Below are positions 3 to 37,956 of a DNA stretch of 37,964 bases, piece after piece. Position 1 is the first letter of the stretch, and each line of letters begins with the position of its first letter. Origin of the DNA: Candidatus Dadabacteria bacterium (lineage in GTDB: Bacteria; Desulfobacterota_D; UBA1144; Nemesobacterales; Nemesobacteraceae). A model generated the notes under the pieces. The model saw only the letters and a program-made list of their open reading frames with translations. It was not told the DNA's origin and ran no database searches. The translations under genes and the position numbers were made by a program. The stretch lies in assembly GCA_028823955.1 (NCBI GenBank), contig JAPPFE010000048.1, positions 1 through 37,964 of the forward strand, in the 5' to 3' direction.

Positions 3-1820
3 GACGTGCTTAAAAAGTTTTACTGTGAAACGGACGGTCCCAACTGGACAAACAAAACCAACTGGGGTTCTTCAGGTGCTCTCAGCACTTGGTATGGGGT
101 TATTGCTAATAACCAAGGAAAAGTTTTTGCCTTGCTTCTCAGGGAAAACATGTTAAGCGGGAGCATACCGCCGGAACTGGGCAGCCTGACTGATCTCGGA
201 CAATTGTACCTTAACAACAACATGTTAAGCGGGAGCATACCGCCGGAACTGGGCAGCCTGACTGCTCTCAGAGAATTGTACCTCAACAACAACGAGTTAA
301 GCGGTGAGATACCGCCGGAGCTAGGCAGCCTGACTGCTCTCAGAGAATTGTACCTCAGCCACAACATGTTAAGCGGGAGCATACCGCCGGAACTGGGCCG
401 CTTTATTTCTCTTGATGAATTGGATCTCAGCCACAACATGTTAAGCGGGAGCATACCGCCGGAACTGGTGGGCCGTGAGGAAGGTTTTCTTTATCTGTTT
501 TATCTCACTGAATTGGATCTCAGCAACAACGAGTTAAGCGGGAAGATACCCGAGGAACTGGGCGACCTGACCAACCTTGAGCAATTGCATCTCCACGAAA
601 ACGAGTTGAGCGGGGAAATACCCGAGGAGCTGGACGAGCTGCCCAGCCTTGTTGAAATTTCCATCTGGTCAAATCCGGAAATTGAGATCCGATTCAAGGA
701 CTTAAACCTCTTGGGCAATGACAGGACGAAGCTGCGCTATATCTATAACGCCAACAACGGGGCACAGTGGAAAAACAATAACAACTGGCTGTCTGACGAA
801 CCGCTGGGAGACTGGTACGGGGTAACAGTCAATGACAACGGCAAGGTTACGGGACTTGATCTTCAGAGCAACAACCTGAGAGGACCTGTTGATGGTGCGT
901 TCTCAGGCCTGCTGTATCTCGGGACCTTGAATCTTTCCGGGAACTGCGGTCTCACAGGAGAGCTGCCTTTAGGGCTGATGCGTGCGCCCTCTCTTAAGAC
1001 ACTGAACCTTGGGTCCACCGGGGTGGGAGTGCCGGACAATGAGGATTTCAGGGATTGGCTTGCCGGCATCAGTTTTACCAGTTCCTCTTGTGTATCGCCG
1101 CCGCGCCCCTCGTCACCCTCGTCACCCTCGTCACCACCACCATCATCATCACCATCATCGCCACTGCCGGAGTCTGACTTTGAGGGTCTGCAGGAAGACA
1201 GGGGAGAGGATGGACTGGCCATAAGTCCCGGGGGAGTGGGTACAAGCCTGATCGTGATCAGTCGCGAGGAAGCAAGGTACATTACAATTGAGTTAAGCGT
1301 CATGGGGAATGAATATCCTGAAGACCTGCCGTCAATCATTCTTTCCCCCTCCCTTCTTGAGCGGGTTGAAGCTGTTTCCTTCAGTCTGAGCGCTCCTTCG
1401 GAAGAAGAACTGCCTGAAGGACTTCGCCTGGAGGGGTTTGTGGTGGAAGCAGGTATTGGAAATGCCATGCTTGGGGCAGGGGAGACCGTAACGGTTTGTC
1501 TGCCTGCGGGTGTTGAGGAGTCGACGCCGAGGCTTTACCGTTACGAAGAGCAGTGGAACCCTCTTTCGGGGTCTGTGGTGGAAACCGTTAACGGCAATAG
1601 GTCTGTTTGCGCCGATGTGTCGTTTCTTCCGTCGCTTTTTGGAGTTTTCGTTGAGATTCCTGGGGTTATGGAGGAAAGCGCTGGCGGATGTTCGGTTGCT
1701 TCCGGAGAAACTGGGAGAGGCGGGTCGTTTAACGTGGCGTTTAATCTGTTTTTGATCATGTTCGGTCTTGTGGGTGTTTTTCGGAGAAGGCGGCGGATAT
1801 GTGTTCACAGAGCCAGGTAG
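3..1820 (+). CDS. Leucine-rich-repeat surface protein with C-terminal Cys-TM-Arg tail (5' partial)
   Basis: The frame is open to the window edge, so the true start and signal peptide probably lie upstream; the first available start is GTG at 6 (604 codons). Numbering from that GTG, the protein begins with a DGPNWTNKTNW cap, then about seven 24-residue plant-type LRRs of the form LxxNxLSGxIPPELGxLT. A second cap (around residue 240, NNGAQWKNNNNW) and more LRRs follow, then a Ser/Pro-rich linker near residues 360-395 and a beta-rich domain. The end has Cys562 in a GGCSVASG motif, a hydrophobic stretch near 575-592 and five arginines at 593-597. That tail resembles sorting signals processed by exosortase- or rhombosortase-like proteases, so cell-surface anchoring is likely. 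The ligand is unknown; adhesion or protein binding is inference. Confidence 0.85.
   Translation, partial: DVLKKFYCETDGPNWTNKTNWGSSGALSTWYGVIANNQGKVFALLLRENMLSGSIPPELGSLTDLGQLYLNNNMLSGSIPPELGSLTALRELYLNNNELSGEIPPELGSLTALRELYLSHNMLSGSIPPELGRFISLDELDLSHNMLSGSIPPELVGREEGFLYLFYLTELDLSNNELSGKIPEELGDLTNLEQLHLHENELSGEIPEELDELPSLVEISIWSNPEIEIRFKDLNLLGNDRTKLRYIYNANNGAQWKNNNNWLSDEPLGDWYGVTVNDNGKVTGLDLQSNNLRGPVDGAFSGLLYLGTLNLSGNCGLTGELPLGLMRAPSLKTLNLGSTGVGVPDNEDFRDWLAGISFTSSSCVSPPRPSSPSSPSSPPPSSSPSSPLPESDFEGLQEDRGEDGLAISPGGVGTSLIVISREEARYITIELSVMGNEYPEDLPSIILSPSLLERVEAVSFSLSAPSEEELPEGLRLEGFVVEAGIGNAMLGAGETVTVCLPAGVEESTPRLYRYEEQWNPLSGSVVETVNGNRSVCADVSFLPSLFGVFVEIPGVMEESAGGCSVASGETGRGGSFNVAFNLFLIMFGLVGVFRRRRRICVHRAR
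147..671 (+). repeat. Tandem 72-bp repeats encoding LRR units
   Basis: Seven in-frame units start at 147, 219, 291, 363, 435, 528 and 600. The period is 72 bp except for the fifth unit, which is 93 bp because of a 21-bp in-frame insertion. A 34-bp block beginning AACATGTTAAGC is identical in units 1, 2, 4 and 5, while units 3, 6 and 7 start AACGAG. Identity at silent positions suggests recent duplication or gene conversion rather than selection on the protein alone. Confidence 0.9.
1097..1170 (+). repeat. Low-complexity Ser/Pro linker repeats
   Basis: Short iterations of TCACCCTCG and then ACC/ATC triplets encode a Pro/Ser-rich spacer between the LRR domain and the beta-rich domain of the surface protein. 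Such tracts are prone to slippage, so length may vary between strains; this is inference. Confidence 0.7.
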
Positions 1821-21913: not shown

Positions 21914-22915
21914 TCAGGATACCGTCTGGCCGCCGCAACTGCTTCCGGCCCCTGCGGTGCATCCGAAACAGTGAACACCGAATCTTATCTTTCTGTTGAT
22001 CACTTGACGAAGGTCGAAGTTAAATATGGTCAGACCCCCGTTCCCGTTTCGGCACTCCATCTCAAGCATCTGGTTAAAGTCGCAGTCGTAGATTTTTCCG
22101 TCGTGGCTTACGCTGATCAGGTTCCGGCACATTATGCCGTTTACGGTTTCGGGATTGAAAGCGTTTATGAGCTTTTCGATGTATTCCTCGTAGGCGTTCT
22201 GTTTTCTCAGTTCCTTCTCAAACCTGTTAATCGGCATATTGGTCAGTGTGTATAGGTTATCGAACCGTATCCCGTAGTTCTTTTTAAGTTTTGCTTTAAA
22301 GTCCGCTTCAAGGCTCATCTGGTCCGGGGGAAGAAAAGTCCCAACGGGGTTATATACCAGATTAAGCTTTAGTTCTCCGCCCCCGTAACCTTCGCCGTTA
22401 AGCATTCTTAGAGATTCTATGCTTTTTTCGAAAACCCCTTTTCCCCTCTGCTTGTCCGTGAAGTAGCTGCTGTAATATGGAAGCGAGGATATGACTTCGA
22501 CGCGGTTTTCGGCAAAAAACCTTGGTATGTACGTTTTTTCTTCTCCCGTCCGGGGGTTCCCGTCGAGAGTAACGGTCAGGTTGTGTCTTACCATTACGTG
22601 TTTGCCAAGACTTCTGGCTTCCCTTACGAAGTAGTCAAAATGGGGGTTTAGCTCCGGAGCTCCTCCGGTCAGGTCAAGGTTTTTGATGCAGTCGTTTTCA
22701 CTAAGTATTTCAAGACATCTTTCTACGCCCTCAATGCTCATCTGCTCACTTCTCCAGGGCGAGGCATCCACGTGACAGTGAGTGCAGGCCTGGTTGCAAA
22801 GTTTTGTTATGTTCACCTGCAGGGTTTCAACCGTAATAGGGTTGATATCGAGACCTTGGTCGATCAGTTTGCGGGAAAAATTATGATTCTCTGTCTTCGT
22901 TTTTTCTTGGATCAT
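21914..22915 (-). CDS. arsS: Arsenosugar biosynthesis radical SAM protein ArsS
   Basis: ArsS is a radical SAM enzyme proposed to attach the 5'-deoxyadenosyl moiety to methylated arsenic, a step toward arsenosugars. The 333-residue protein has the cluster motif CNQACTHC (Cys40, Cys44, Cys47), a spacing of C-x3-C-x2-C, then the LTGGAPELNPHF motif. The C-terminal DUF3641-like region ends with HCFGCTAGAGSSCGG, giving further cysteines at 316, 319 and 327. AAGGA precedes the ATG by about 7 nt. Its neighbours are a TIGR04282-type glycosyltransferase and an AhpD-like protein, the usual arsS company. No arsM is visible in the window. Confidence 0.93.
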   Translation of the reverse strand: MIQEKTKTENHNFSRKLIDQGLDINPITVETLQVNITKLCNQACTHCHVDASPWRSEQMSIEGVERCLEILSENDCIKNLDLTGGAPELNPHFDYFVREARSLGKHVMVRHNLTVTLDGNPRTGEEKTYIPRFFAENRVEVISSLPYYSSYFTDKQRGKGVFEKSIESLRMLNGEGYGGGELKLNLVYNPVGTFLPPDQMSLEADFKAKLKKNYGIRFDNLYTLTNMPINRFEKELRKQNAYEEYIEKLINAFNPETVNGIMCRNLISVSHDGKIYDCDFNQMLEMECRNGNGGLTIFNFDLRQVINRKIRFGVHCFGCTAGAGSSCGGQTVS

Positions 22916-30408: not shown

Positions 30409-31632
30409 TTGGAGACTGCACGAATTATCTCATTTCAGGACACCATACGCACAATTGCTAAGGGGATAAAGTCAGGGATTCGGGGCGGCTTCTGCCTTTG
30501 CGTTGTCCTGTGCGTCTGGGCGGCGGGCGCCGCAATTGCACGAACGGAGACCCCTCCCCGACACTTGCGTGAAGCCTGTGTCGAGGACGGTCGACGCTTG
30601 GAGTACGGGTTTTTCGCCGACTTCAGACCCGTGAGCTACAGCGAGAACCTAGATCCGGACAGCCCCGGGTTTAACAGTCACCTCGGCTACGAAGCCGATC
30701 TATTGACCGCACTGGAGACGATGGAGGACGCAGGGCTTATATTCAACCGTAGCGCTATCAAGGAATGGCCGGGCATTTGGTTGCTGCCCGCTACCCCTCG
30801 TTATGACTTGGTGGGAGGTGGGATCACCATACTTAAGTCGCGCACCCGCGACGCAACGGGGGCGACGAGGGTCATTTTCACTTCCGGCCACATTACCTTC
30901 CGCCAGTCACTCTTAGTGCGCGCGGAGGATGCCCAGCGTTATGGTTCGCATGATGATCTGGATGATGCGCGGGTCGCCGTGTTGGGCGGCTCGACAGGCG
31001 AACATCGGCTACTGCAGTTAACCGGGGTGGTGGATTCCGAAGGCAACCTAGCTGCCGGCACGGTGATCCACTTGGGCGACGGCACGAGGCTCACTGCCGA
31101 CGGCAGTACTGACTACAGGATCACCGCTGCTGCCTCAACCGGGAACCTTTCGGACCGTACGCGCATCGAGGGGATTCGGGGAACCGTCAGGGAAGTGCTC
31201 ATCATGTCAACGGATCAGGAGCAACTGGACGCCTTGCGCGATGGGCGGGTGGATGCCGTGGCCCGTGGTGGGTTGGGCAACCACGAAGCCTCCCGAAACT
31301 CCGATTCCCGTTTCGTCGTGACGGCTCTCGACCCGGAGGTAGAGTACGGCGCTTTTGTCTTTGACAAAAATGACCGAGCCCTCGCCGACTGTGTTGATAC
31401 CCGAATCAACTACCTGACCGACAACCAGCGCATCGGCTTTGCGGAGTGGGTGGAGGACCCTGAAGTTTTCCTTAAACGCGCCCGTTACTGGAACGCCTCG
31501 GCGGAAGACGATGATGACGGGTGCTTCATCGCCGCAACCGGCAGTGCGCATCAAAACACCTTGCTTAACCTGCTACTTACGGCGTTCATTTTGTTCTCGG
31601 TGGTTTCCTTGAGAAAACGCGTCTGGCACTAG
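30409..31632 (+). CDS. Solute-binding-protein-like (SBP_bac_3 type) protein with C-terminal Cys-TM-Arg tail
   Basis: A 407-residue secreted protein resembling amino-acid-type periplasmic binding proteins. The signal peptide is near residues 27-45 (GGFCLCVVLCVWAAGAAIA). The binding-protein fold is suggested by YGFFADFRPVSY, LGYEADLLTALE, DLVGGGITILKSRTRDATG and VAVLGGSTGEHRL. About 50 residues (near 205-260) form an unusual insertion. The tail has Cys372 in GCFIAATG, a hydrophobic stretch (about 385-401) and RKR, like the LRR protein at the left end. No permease or ATPase lies nearby, so a sensor or scavenger role is possible. The TTG start is uncertain. Arginine codons are nearly all CGN, suggesting transfer. 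Confidence 0.75.
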   Translation: METARIISFQDTIRTIAKGIKSGIRGGFCLCVVLCVWAAGAAIARTETPPRHLREACVEDGRRLEYGFFADFRPVSYSENLDPDSPGFNSHLGYEADLLTALETMEDAGLIFNRSAIKEWPGIWLLPATPRYDLVGGGITILKSRTRDATGATRVIFTSGHITFRQSLLVRAEDAQRYGSHDDLDDARVAVLGGSTGEHRLLQLTGVVDSEGNLAAGTVIHLGDGTRLTADGSTDYRITAAASTGNLSDRTRIEGIRGTVREVLIMSTDQEQLDALRDGRVDAVARGGLGNHEASRNSDSRFVVTALDPEVEYGAFVFDKNDRALADCVDTRINYLTDNQRIGFAEWVEDPEVFLKRARYWNASAEDDDDGCFIAATGSAHQNTLLNLLLTAFILFSVVSLRKRVWH

Positions 31633-34805: not shown

Positions 34806-36149
34806 ATGTCAGAGTTAAACCGTTTATTAGATCGATTCCTTGAAAAAGGTCTGTTGGATTTGAAAGGAAATGATGAATGGTATGGACACATCACGTCGAC
34901 GGCAATGTCGTTATCCAATTATCTGCGGGCTAATCCCGAAAAAATTGTCCCATTCACATATGCAGCGCTGTTACCCGATGTAGGTGACAAAAATCCGGCC
35001 ATCGAAAAAACCCTAGATCTTCTTAAAGCGGAATGGAGAACCTATGCCTCGGTATCAATGTCGTCACCAAAAAACATGTTGCGAGTGATCATCTTGGATG
35101 CTTTGCTGGCAAATGCCGAGTCGGACGATGCGACAAAGTCAGCCTTGGCGCTGTTGCTAGCAAGTGCACTGCCGCATCTCTCTTTCGGGAAAGAAGAAGA
35201 AATTTGGAAGACGGCACTTGATGAGTTGCTCAGCGCTGTCGAACGTAGTGCTGAAGTTGCGTGGACGGTTCCAAGCCAGATAAGCGTACCGGATTTCCCA
35301 AAGATCAATGTTCCGACAATACGCATTCCGGTGAAAAGTGGAGAAGTTGACAAGGAGGCGCTTGAAAAGGGTATGTGCGCCGCCGCAGGTCCTACAGATG
35401 CTGAGGGTCAGCCAACCGATGGCAACCAGCACTGGCCGAACTATGAACAAAGTTGGAGTTCCGAATTCGCATCCTATGCCGCTTCAGCGATCAGTGAGGC
35501 CATTTCCAAAGCTATGGGCCCCAAAACAGTCTCGGTGAAACCCGAAGCTCTCGCCAAGGTGCTGACCAACGCTATCGTCAATCACTTGGAATCCTTCACC
35601 GATCAATTAGCATCGACAACACACGGTGTTGAAATGCGTTCGCGCCTGTTGTGGTGGAAAGAGGCGCTTGTATCCCCCTCGGCGCATATCAGCTACCGCG
35701 AGATTGACCACAAAGCCGTGCCTGGCCTCATGGCTTACGACTATCAAGCCGTGTTGCCATCCCTCGCGCCATCAAGTGTTTCGGCATTCCTAGTAGAAAC
35801 TGTGCGAACGCTACTGCCCGATGATGAAGCGGCACCGTTGGTCGAATGGCTGCAAGCTTTGGCCACATTGCCGCATGCCGAAGCGCTTAGGTCAACGGTC
35901 CGCGAAGTCGTGTTTGCAGATGGGTATTGTCCCTTGGTGTCGCTCGTAGCCTTGGATAAACCGGGAGCAAAGTCAATCAAAAAAAGGACCGTGTTTACCC
36001 CGGATCTGTCGCTGACCGCTTCTCAATTCGGATTACTCATTTTTCTCGAGCTTCAAGCAATGAAAGCCACAAAAGAAGTTGTTTCCTTTAAGGCAGAAGA
36101 GACTTCTGAAATCGCAGACGGCGGTGCAGATAAAGAGGATAACGCATGA
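34806..36149 (+). CDS. GASH-like all-helical protein of a GTPase-associated system
   Basis: A 447-residue predominantly helical protein. It starts MSELNRLLDRFLEKGLLDL and includes a region rich in short helices (LRVIILDALLANAES, KSALALLLASALPHL), an acidic Gly/Pro linker (about 185-215) and a C-terminal block with RSRLLWWKEALVSPSAHISYR. This resembles what I recall of the GTPase-associated system helical protein GASH, and its two downstream neighbours are the expected GTPase partners. Function is not proven; a scaffold or regulator in a predicted conflict system is inferred. The start is ATG at 34806, with GAGGAG 7 nt upstream, preferred over the GTG at 34791. The stop overlaps the next ATG (ATGA). 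CGN arginine codons dominate, unlike core genes. Confidence 0.75.
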   Translation: MSELNRLLDRFLEKGLLDLKGNDEWYGHITSTAMSLSNYLRANPEKIVPFTYAALLPDVGDKNPAIEKTLDLLKAEWRTYASVSMSSPKNMLRVIILDALLANAESDDATKSALALLLASALPHLSFGKEEEIWKTALDELLSAVERSAEVAWTVPSQISVPDFPKINVPTIRIPVKSGEVDKEALEKGMCAAAGPTDAEGQPTDGNQHWPNYEQSWSSEFASYAASAISEAISKAMGPKTVSVKPEALAKVLTNAIVNHLESFTDQLASTTHGVEMRSRLLWWKEALVSPSAHISYREIDHKAVPGLMAYDYQAVLPSLAPSSVSAFLVETVRTLLPDDEAAPLVEWLQALATLPHAEALRSTVREVVFADGYCPLVSLVALDKPGAKSIKKRTVFTPDLSLTASQFGLLIFLELQAMKATKEVVSFKAEETSEIADGGADKEDNA

Positions 36150-37120
36150 GCAGTGCGGAGCTAAACAAATGCCGGATGAAAGATTGTTTTTTCCCGAGTA
36201 CCAGTTGCGGGGCAGGACTCATGGATGCCGCTCAGTGTCCACATTATCACGGCGACATCGAAAAGGATCAACCCGGCCTTGCCGCAGACGATGAGCGGTT
36301 CCCTTGGACTGGCCGAGCATTTGGCCTGAAGGATCTTCGATTCGTATCGACTGTAAAGAAACCACATGTAATCGGTATGGCAGGCTTGGCTGATGCGGGC
36401 AAGACTACTCTTTTGGGCATGCTCTTTCTGATGATCTATCGCGGGCACCGAATCATTGACAACGCTACGTTCGCGGGTTCTTTCACCCTTCAAGGTTGGG
36501 AAAACATCACTCGCTATCTTCAACTCAATTCTGACGGCCCTATCCAGTTTCCTCCGCATACGACTCAGTCGGGACGATTCCCGGGGTTGTTGCATTTGAA
36601 GTTTACAATGGATGGCGGAAGTGAGAGGGATTTCCTCCTCAGCGACGCGCCAGGCGAATGGTTCTCTCATTGGGCTGACAACGCCGAAGCAGAGAATGCT
36701 GCGGGCGCGCGCTGGATCGCCGACAACGCCGACAATCTGATGATTGTCGCAGATACAGAGGCCCTGATCGGCCCACAGAAGGGACCTGCGCGGTCAAATC
36801 TGGAATTCTTGATCCGGCGTGTGCAGAGGAACTTCAGCAAGGATTCTGTTGCGCTTCTTTGGTCAAAGACGGACCTCCCGCGTCCGGATGAGTTGATTAC
36901 AACCGTTAACCGCCATTTCGAAAACTGTTTTCCAGGGGCGCCGGTATTTTCGGTTAAAGTCCCTGACAAAAACGAAAGAGTGGGTGAGACGTCTTTATCT
37001 TTGCAAGCTTTGAAAGAACTGTTTCAATGGGCGTTCTCTACGGTGCCCAAAAAAGTAGTTGTGGATTGGCCGGTATCGAAGAATGTGGATTCGTTCTTGT
37101 CGTATCGAGGCCATCAATGA
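36146..37120 (+). CDS. Double-GTPase 2-like (DO-GTPase2) protein with N-terminal Cys-rich region
   Basis: A 324-residue GTPase. The N-terminal 36 residues hold Cys9, Cys14, Cys21, Cys31, His33 and His35, a possible zinc-binding site. The G domain has the P-loop GLADAGKT (80-87), a DAPGE motif as G3, and WSKTDL as a G4-like motif. It lacks similarity to translation or Era/Obg GTPases. The arrangement beside a GASH-like protein and a second GTPase matches the DO-GTPase systems predicted from comparative genomics. It overlaps both neighbours by 4 nt, so the three proteins are likely made in fixed ratio. Confidence 0.78.
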   Translation: MSSAELNKCRMKDCFFPSTSCGAGLMDAAQCPHYHGDIEKDQPGLAADDERFPWTGRAFGLKDLRFVSTVKKPHVIGMAGLADAGKTTLLGMLFLMIYRGHRIIDNATFAGSFTLQGWENITRYLQLNSDGPIQFPPHTTQSGRFPGLLHLKFTMDGGSERDFLLSDAPGEWFSHWADNAEAENAAGARWIADNADNLMIVADTEALIGPQKGPARSNLEFLIRRVQRNFSKDSVALLWSKTDLPRPDELITTVNRHFENCFPGAPVFSVKVPDKNERVGETSLSLQALKELFQWAFSTVPKKVVVDWPVSKNVDSFLSYRGHQ

Positions 37121-37956
37121 AACACGAACCAATTTCGATTCTCCTCCTTGGTGAGTCTGATGTCGGCAAGACACATTATGGCGCGCAGGTTTTACGGCGG
37201 TTGAATTCGGGGAGCAGCGCGTTTGAACTTGTCAACGGGGGAAACTTAAATCCATTCAAGGTCGCCCTCGATAAAATCAGTCAGGGGTTGTCAGCGCCAC
37301 ATACGCCGCGTGCCGAATCCAGCGAAAGCCTCTGGACGCTCCGACAGCGATCCAACGGTTCCAATATAGAGCTTGTTTGGCCCGATTATGGCGGTGAACA
37401 GGTAAGTGGAATGATCAATAGCAAATCCCTGCCTTCTACTTGGCGCGACAAGCTTATCAAAGCGGCGGGGTGGATTTTCATGGTGCGCCCTAGCCAAGTT
37501 CCCTTGCCCGAGGATATCCTTACGCGGGCCGTGTCGCTTCCTGCGGTTGATGATCCTGTAAACTCGACCTTGTCGCCACAGTCAAAGTTGATCGAAATTT
37601 TGCAAATGCTAAAGTACAAAAAGCAGTCTTACCTGGAGCACAAAGGAATGCCCCCGCCCATAGTCGTTCTCTTATCATGTTACGACGAATTAGCCACCGA
37701 CGAGTCGCCTAGTATTTATTGTCGTGCCCATTTGCCAATGTTTGATCAATACTTGTCGTCAAACTGGCCAGAGGAGCGTCGGCGGATTTTTGGGGTTTCA
37801 CCCTTGGGGCAGCCGTTGAGCCAGACACAACCGAACGACGACTACGTCGCATCCGGACCAGTGAAAAAAGGATTTGTTATCGACGAACAAGGGAACAAGA
37901 CAGGTGATTTGCTTGCTCCCATTGAATGGCTTCTTTCAGTTTCGGACATGTGTTGA
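37117..37956 (+). CDS. Double-GTPase 1-like (DO-GTPase1) protein
   Basis: A 279-residue GTPase-fold protein. The P-loop is GESDVGKT (12-19), directly after a hydrophobic strand (ISILLLG), G3 is PDYGGEQV and the G4-like position is SCYDEL, which lacks the usual N/T-K-x-D lysine. Base specificity may therefore be altered. The start is the ATG at 37117, which overlaps the previous stop (ATGA); an open frame runs back to 37027 but inside the preceding gene. It is the last complete gene of the window, so effector or further partners may follow downstream. Confidence 0.78.
   Translation: MKHEPISILLLGESDVGKTHYGAQVLRRLNSGSSAFELVNGGNLNPFKVALDKISQGLSAPHTPRAESSESLWTLRQRSNGSNIELVWPDYGGEQVSGMINSKSLPSTWRDKLIKAAGWIFMVRPSQVPLPEDILTRAVSLPAVDDPVNSTLSPQSKLIEILQMLKYKKQSYLEHKGMPPPIVVLLSCYDELATDESPSIYCRAHLPMFDQYLSSNWPEERRRIFGVSPLGQPLSQTQPNDDYVASGPVKKGFVIDEQGNKTGDLLAPIEWLLSVSDMC

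Follow-up and report, generated by a model that had tools for sequence, protein, structure and literature searches.

Two unrelated proteins of the window end in a similar Cys-containing tail

The window, a stretch of 37,964 nucleotides, is the whole of contig C23 of a Candidatus Dadabacteria genome (G000; 1,683,548 bases in 55 contigs, 95% completeness). At its left end lies a leucine-rich-repeat (LRR) protein (positions 3..1820, + strand, 605 aa; Pfam LRR_1, 95 bits). Since nothing of the contig precedes the window, the frame is open at the 5′ end, and the 5′ part of the gene is missing. The translation of positions 1668-1820 reads MEESAGGCSVASGETGRGGSFNVAFNLFLIMFGLVGVFRRRRRICVHRAR, followed by the stop. 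It contains, on the + strand, the signature GGCSVASG (1683..1706, Cys codon 1689-1691), the hydrophobic segment FNVAFNLFLIMFGLVGVF (1728..1781), and an RRRRR cluster (1782..1796). A relative of this protein in another genome (L240, G017:C1) is an intact 568-aa frame with a signal-peptide-like N-terminal segment. The length of 568 aa with a start in that genome, against 605 aa without one in the window, suggests that the number of repeats is variable.

The second tail belongs to a protein encoded at 30409..31632 (+ strand, 407 aa counted from a TTG codon, the real start being uncertain). Its N terminus is signal peptide-like as judged by eye, and it weakly matches the family 3 solute-binding proteins (Pfam SBP_bac_3, 17 bits, below the cut-off of 26.4). 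The open reading frame ends in DDDDGCFIAATGSAHQNTLLNLLLTAFILFSVVSLRKRVWH, in which the signature GCFIAATG (31519..31542, + strand, Cys codon 31522-31524) is followed by the hydrophobic segment LLNLLLTAFILFSVVSL (31561..31611, + strand) and an RKR cluster (31612..31620, + strand). Both tails follow the layout GC[SF][VI]A, about 10 residues, a hydrophobic segment, and then RRRRR or RKR. The original prediction, that a Cys-transmembrane-Arg tail ends two unrelated proteins of the window, is confirmed by translation. Both tails are where it had placed them; the only discrepancy, an inconsequential one, is a shift of one base out of frame in the start assigned to the second (31512). Neither tail is named by NCBIfam (release 20), in which tail 1 comes closest to MYXO-CTERM (11.2 of 20 bits) and tail 2 to the CFI-box motif (13.9 of 15.9 bits), both below the cut-off.

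The window also encodes a radical SAM protein with DUF3641 (21914-22915, − strand) and, near the contig end, a Double-GTPase 2 domain protein (PF19993, 161 bits; 36146-37120), beside which lies an uncharacterized frame (37027-37956).

The tail marks a genome-wide set of proteins

When tail 2 was used as a lone query, 10 other places in the genome were found (E <= 0.1); tail 1 found one other place (E = 0.009), and a near-copy of one further tail found 16 including itself (E <= 0.1). The 17 G000 tails gathered by these queries make up profile A1, so that counts of A1 matches include its seeds. Both window tails are among these seeds and are matched at 1671-1811 (E 2.5e-15) and 31504-31629 (E 3.9e-21), respectively. 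The one non-seed match of A1 in G000 (E = 0.0016) sits on a metalloprotease-like protein and, together with the further places found by the lone-tail queries, indicates a likeness beyond chance. The total is 18 copies of the tail in 16 open frames within 1.68 Mb, two frames holding two copies each. The original prediction had staked its case on a profile scan bringing up further carriers in the genome, and the scan did so. Two more weak places (L047 and L049) may be genuine as well.

A signal-peptide-like segment, identified by eye, opens all 12 carrier frames with a readable start. Outside this count are the frame on C9 and the LRR protein of the window, which are cut by contig ends, and the frames on C13 and at C52:7985, the upstream part of which is apparently in another frame. 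The latter frames (G000:C13:75801-75923, L032 and L023; G000:C52:7985-8110, L039) are either broken genes or assembly errors. Ten carriers, nine from G000 plus the G017 relative of the LRR protein, were given to Pfam: five matched dCache_2 (four over the cut-off), the G017 relative matched LRR, and four had no match at E <= 0.01. Folds bearing the tail in G000 are LRR, SBP_bac_3-like, dCache_2, and metalloprotease-like; among relatives, thrombospondin-like repeats and a subtilisin-like protease also bear it. Exported proteins from across the genome are marked in this way, which supports the earlier interpretation of a tail shared by different folds as a sorting system.

Distribution of the tail in the phylum

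At E <= 0.001, A1 found tails in 22 of 57 genomes of the phylum, including all 13 of the genus, and had no match in the 14 genomes of family f8. A broader profile, A2, was built from 19 tails, nine from G000 and ten from other genomes (G004, G008, G009, G014, G016, G029, G036, G038, G039, and G040); its match counts likewise include the seeds. The Cys is invariant across these 19 diverse tails, while the other columns vary (mean column identity, 33%). A2 found tails at E <= 0.05 in 37/57 phylum genomes and in 0/14 genomes of f8, a family of small genomes. The best A2 locus of a genome lay 0 to 12 residues before the stop of its frame in 30 of 30 cases. Type II secretion was surveyed through GspD (TIGR02517), which matched all 13 genus genomes (11 of them above the cut-off and two with a split match) and 43 of the 57 phylum genomes but none of the 14 of f8, a family also without tails. 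The presence of GspD would allow surface export by type II secretion.

G000 encodes a single CPBP protease

The original prediction also placed a protease for the tail elsewhere in the genome, to be sought among exosortases or rhomboid-like enzymes. A fitting enzyme is indeed encoded elsewhere, at G000:C45:54282-54884, though it is of neither kind: it is the sole match to PF02517 (CPBP/Rce1-like) in the genome, at 73 bits against a cut-off of 22.4. The best NCBIfam matches of the enzyme are to myxosortase models, in the order MrtP (77 bits), Mrt_core (69), MrtS (64), MrtC (58), MrtX (46), and MrtJ (40). All of these scores lie below the curated cut-offs, including those for Mrt_core (NF040914, 68.9 of 100 bits) and MrtS (NF040589, 64 of 130). 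The Mrt_core cut-off was reached in none of the 57 phylum genomes; a Myxococcales enzyme scored 110.5 bits, above the 100-bit cut-off.

The catalytic residues E115, E116, R120, H145, H188, and N192 are invariant in an alignment of 21 orthologs, and the EExxxR, H, and HxxxN motifs are invariant also in 46 relatives of the enzyme. A structure model of an 87%-identical ortholog (pLDDT 91.6, pTM 0.87) had as its top PDB matches SpdC, with a Z of 17.4, and Rce1, with a Z of 16.1 and an rmsd of 2.7 over 188; the next structure had a Z of 5.2. Foldseek probabilities with the same model were 1.00 for SpdC and 0.99 for Rce1, and no more than 0.16 for the others among the matches listed. As modeled, the fold of the CPBP enzyme is of the Rce1 type. 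By sequence, the enzyme profile matched nothing in the PDB up to E = 1.

Orthologs (E < 1e-20) were found in 32 of the 57 phylum genomes and in 12 of the 13 of the genus. Tails were present in 30/32 genomes with an ortholog versus 7/25 without one. In two genomes, G028 and G034, the enzyme occurs without a tail match. The seven with tails and no detected ortholog are G024, G031, G032, G036, G037, G038, and G039; some of these assemblies are incomplete, whereas G037, with 12 tail matches, has a completeness of 96%. In a tree of 77 relatives, from which three short rows had been removed beforehand, the Dadabacteria enzymes were separate from the Myxococcota-type ones (99/97), and these two groups together were separate from most Nitrospirota enzymes (98/100); some rows are long-branched, and the separations carry a long-branch warning.

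Protease and tail genes adjoin in Nitrospirota

Relatives of the CPBP enzyme led to 30 loci of the Nitrospirota type (L173 and L175-L203; the title of one reads just "uncultured bacterium"). Although A2 contains no Nitrospirota seed, it found tails in 19 of these loci (i-E of about 0.1 or better). A search pattern for the GGGC[SA][IV]-type tail, drawn up after the A2 matches in these loci were known, placed a tail gene within 500 bp of the CPBP-relative gene in 20 of 30 loci, at 5.4 kb in one, and nowhere in the remaining nine. These distances run from the tblastn segment rather than the gene end, and some of the loci counted are near copies (L186 and L189). Among 23 Dadabacteria-type loci, none had a tail gene within 500 bp of the protease and one had it at 3.7 kb; no protease/tail gene pair was found in Dadabacteria. 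A comparison set of 27 loci (L204-L230) yielded one MYXO-CTERM-like tail and one spurious match; two Nitrospirota-titled loci within it, L221 and L222, had no tail gene.

Four neighbors of the Nitrospirota protease were scanned with NCBIfam, and all resembled subtilisin-like proteases at scores below the cut-offs. In L173-L202, the myxosortase-like CPBP gene is adjoined by genes of subtilisin-like proteases that carry a GGGGGCS[IV]G-type tail. MrtS was the top model for 3/3 Nitrospirota enzymes scanned, at 66 to 76 bits against a cut-off of 130, and NCBIfam release 20 named none of the scanned tails and enzymes of Dadabacteria and Nitrospirota above a cut-off. No other evidence ties this group of enzymes to Cys-containing tails as strongly as the gene pairing in Nitrospirota, in which the presumed substrate and enzyme genes adjoin.

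Comparison with known sorting systems

The closest parallels are systems in which an intramembrane protease acts on a C-terminal signal. With MYXO-CTERM/MrtX (TIGR03901/NF040593) of M. xanthus (PMC11980579), the Dadabacteria system shares the invariant Cys, the helix, the Arg cluster, substrates with signal peptides, and a CPBP protease that is about 200-240 aa long and contains EExxxR and HxxxN. It differs in its signature, GC[AS][IV][AS] in Dadabacteria versus the GCGC type given for M. xanthus, and in its scores (TIGR03901, best 12.6 of 20 bits; G000 enzyme against MrtX, 46 of 180 bits). The MrtS protease of the Synerg-CTERM system (NF040589) aligned with almost all of the G000 enzyme over profile positions 7-161 of 170 at 64 bits, but the cut-off is 130 bits, and no Synerg-CTERM match was listed for the tail proteins scanned. 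JDVT-CTERM/MrtJ (NF033191/NF033192) likewise has a short Cys tail, and its protease lies beside a single substrate gene, as in the Nitrospirota loci (PMC11980579 for the JDVT-CTERM pair); the best tail score was 15.4 of 27 bits, however, and that of the G000 enzyme 40 of 75 bits.

Two further systems resemble the Dadabacteria tail in layout. GlyGly-CTERM and rhombosortase (TIGR03902) share with it a C-terminal motif, a helix, a basic end, and a cut by an intramembrane protease, whereas the rhomboid of G000 reaches just 17.8 of the 84 bits for rhombosortase; to our knowledge, the GlyGly-CTERM signal has no Cys. PEP-CTERM, the exosortase (PF09721) substrate signal, has a similar tripartite layout, and we know of no Cys in the PEP motif. 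PF09721 matched 15 of the 57 phylum genomes, in families f6 and f7 only, and none of the 13 of the genus. An exosortase was therefore rejected for G000. We read the system as a variant of the MYXO-CTERM/myxosortase kind that lies outside any named NCBIfam pair.

A model for the tail and its alternatives

What computation has established is a family of tails on unrelated folds, a protease placed by family, by fold, and by its catalytic residues, and, in Nitrospirota, a close linkage of related proteases to Cys-tail genes. On this basis, we consider it quite likely that the tail is a C-terminal sorting signal whose Cys is probably acylated and which is then cut by an Mrt-like CPBP protease. A protein with the tail would be exported by Sec via its N-terminal signal peptide, and the tail helix would hold it in the inner membrane with the arginines in the cytoplasm. 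The invariant Cys would probably be acylated, perhaps by an Lgt-like enzyme. The single CPBP-type glutamic intramembrane protease of G000 would then cut just past the Cys, and the mature protein would become anchored at the cell surface. Lipidation and cleavage are suggested by analogy with M. xanthus, in which the myxosortase cuts Cys-containing tails and a lipid on the Cys is proposed, not proved (PMC11980579). Delivery to the surface, the position of the cut, and the action of the CPBP enzyme rather than a rhomboid in Dadabacteria are likewise what we infer.

The protease could instead be the single rhomboid serine protease of G000 (C48:3232-3669), acting as rhombosortase does on GlyGly-CTERM, with the CPBP enzyme doing something else. 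By its score against the curated cut-off, this rhomboid is not a rhombosortase. As a plain rhomboid it is retained as a rival, because its presence fits that of the tails. Rhomboid matches occur in 39 of the 57 phylum genomes, including 36 of the 37 with tails (compared with 30 of 37 for the CPBP enzyme) and all seven of the tail-bearing genomes with no detected CPBP ortholog. Within the order, the fit to tail presence was p = 0.03 for the CPBP enzyme and p = 0.006 for the rhomboid (Fisher test on kin genomes, which are not independent). Since the CPBP fit is weak and weaker than that of the rhomboid, and the genomes are related, the phylogenetic profile was set aside as a deciding test. Rhomboid matches were found in 14/14 control genomes, however, which makes rhomboid presence of little informative value. 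The experimentally known enzyme for Cys tails of such a layout is a CPBP protease, that of M. xanthus (PMC11980579). The neighbors of tail genes in Nitrospirota are CPBP relatives as well, although these loci were fetched by the CPBP enzyme and rhomboid neighbors fell outside the search. Given the matches in all controls and the score below the rhombosortase cut-off, the rhomboid was placed second, and we regard it as unlikely to be the enzyme.

A helix followed by Arg or Lys is also the usual layout of a stop-transfer anchor. The tail matches this layout and might be a mere type I membrane anchor, nothing being cut and the Cys motif having another role. The invariance of the Cys in 19 tails that are otherwise so diverse speaks against this, as does the recurrence of the motif on unrelated folds and, in another phylum, close to a myxosortase-like protease, and we judge an anchor alone to be improbable, slightly more so than cleavage by the rhomboid. 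That the two window tails are alike by chance, or that all carriers descend from one duplicated gene, is very improbable indeed. The dCache_2 matches in five of the nine G000 frames given to Pfam imply that duplication accounts for part of the spread of the tail. The tail is also found on LRR, SBP-like, and metalloprotease-like frames, and A2 tails occur in 37 phylum genomes against none of f8; these further carriers on other folds refute both chance and a single duplicated gene.

With cleavage by the CPBP enzyme as the preferred reading, Cys-type tails with a CPBP protease now extend to Dadabacteria and Nitrospirota. The named relatives within the genus are uncultured Dadabacteria, a group reported in association with sponges. 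Sorting signals of this kind reveal surface proteins of an uncultured bacterium, here putatively LRR, Cache domain, and solute-binding proteins and proteases. Among the papers listed in literature searches, none dealt with the Dadabacteria tail or with internal tails, though an in silico study of Cys-type tails from 2024 could already cover part of the present system.

Internal tails in double-length frames

Nine frames of 835-909 aa (L231-L239) from six genomes contain the unit of signal peptide, Cache domain, and tail twice, with no stop between. G000 has two (L231 at C5:15500-19200 and L232 at C33:1-3200), in both of which Pfam sees the Cache domain; G023 has three, and G017, G020, G021, and G024 have one each. 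In 9/9 frames the internal tail keeps GC, and a basic linker separates it from the second signal peptide, which ends in A-x-A-H. In L232, L233, L234, and L239, there is no ATG, GTG, or TTG between the internal tail and the second hydrophobic core, and an independent second gene starting before the second signal peptide is therefore excluded in these four. Such a start is possible in L235 and L236 (ATG), and a GTG is present in L231, L237, and L238. Across the stretch between the internal Cys motif and the end of the second signal peptide (70-77 aligned codons), dN/dS was 0.14 to 0.57 in all 31 of the 36 frame pairs with a finite dS, the other five being saturated. The junction is under purifying selection. 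The nine frames are related and do not represent nine separate events.

Most simply, the double frames are read as polyproteins in which the internal tail serves for sorting and cleavage, a possibility that we put forward tentatively and would not yet call probable. The Mrt-like protease would cut at the internal Cys and signal peptidase at the second signal peptide, so that a single chain would give rise to two surface proteins, each with its own anchor. Alternatively, the product of a double frame may stay uncut at the internal tail, as a membrane protein whose two domains both lie outside. If the polyprotein reading is true, a C-terminal sorting signal doubles as a bacterial polyprotein cleavage site, and the internal tails raise the question of whether a C-terminal sorting signal need be C-terminal. 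In G000, L232 meets the end of contig C33 two bases past the last codon read; its near-copy in G017, L233, is complete.
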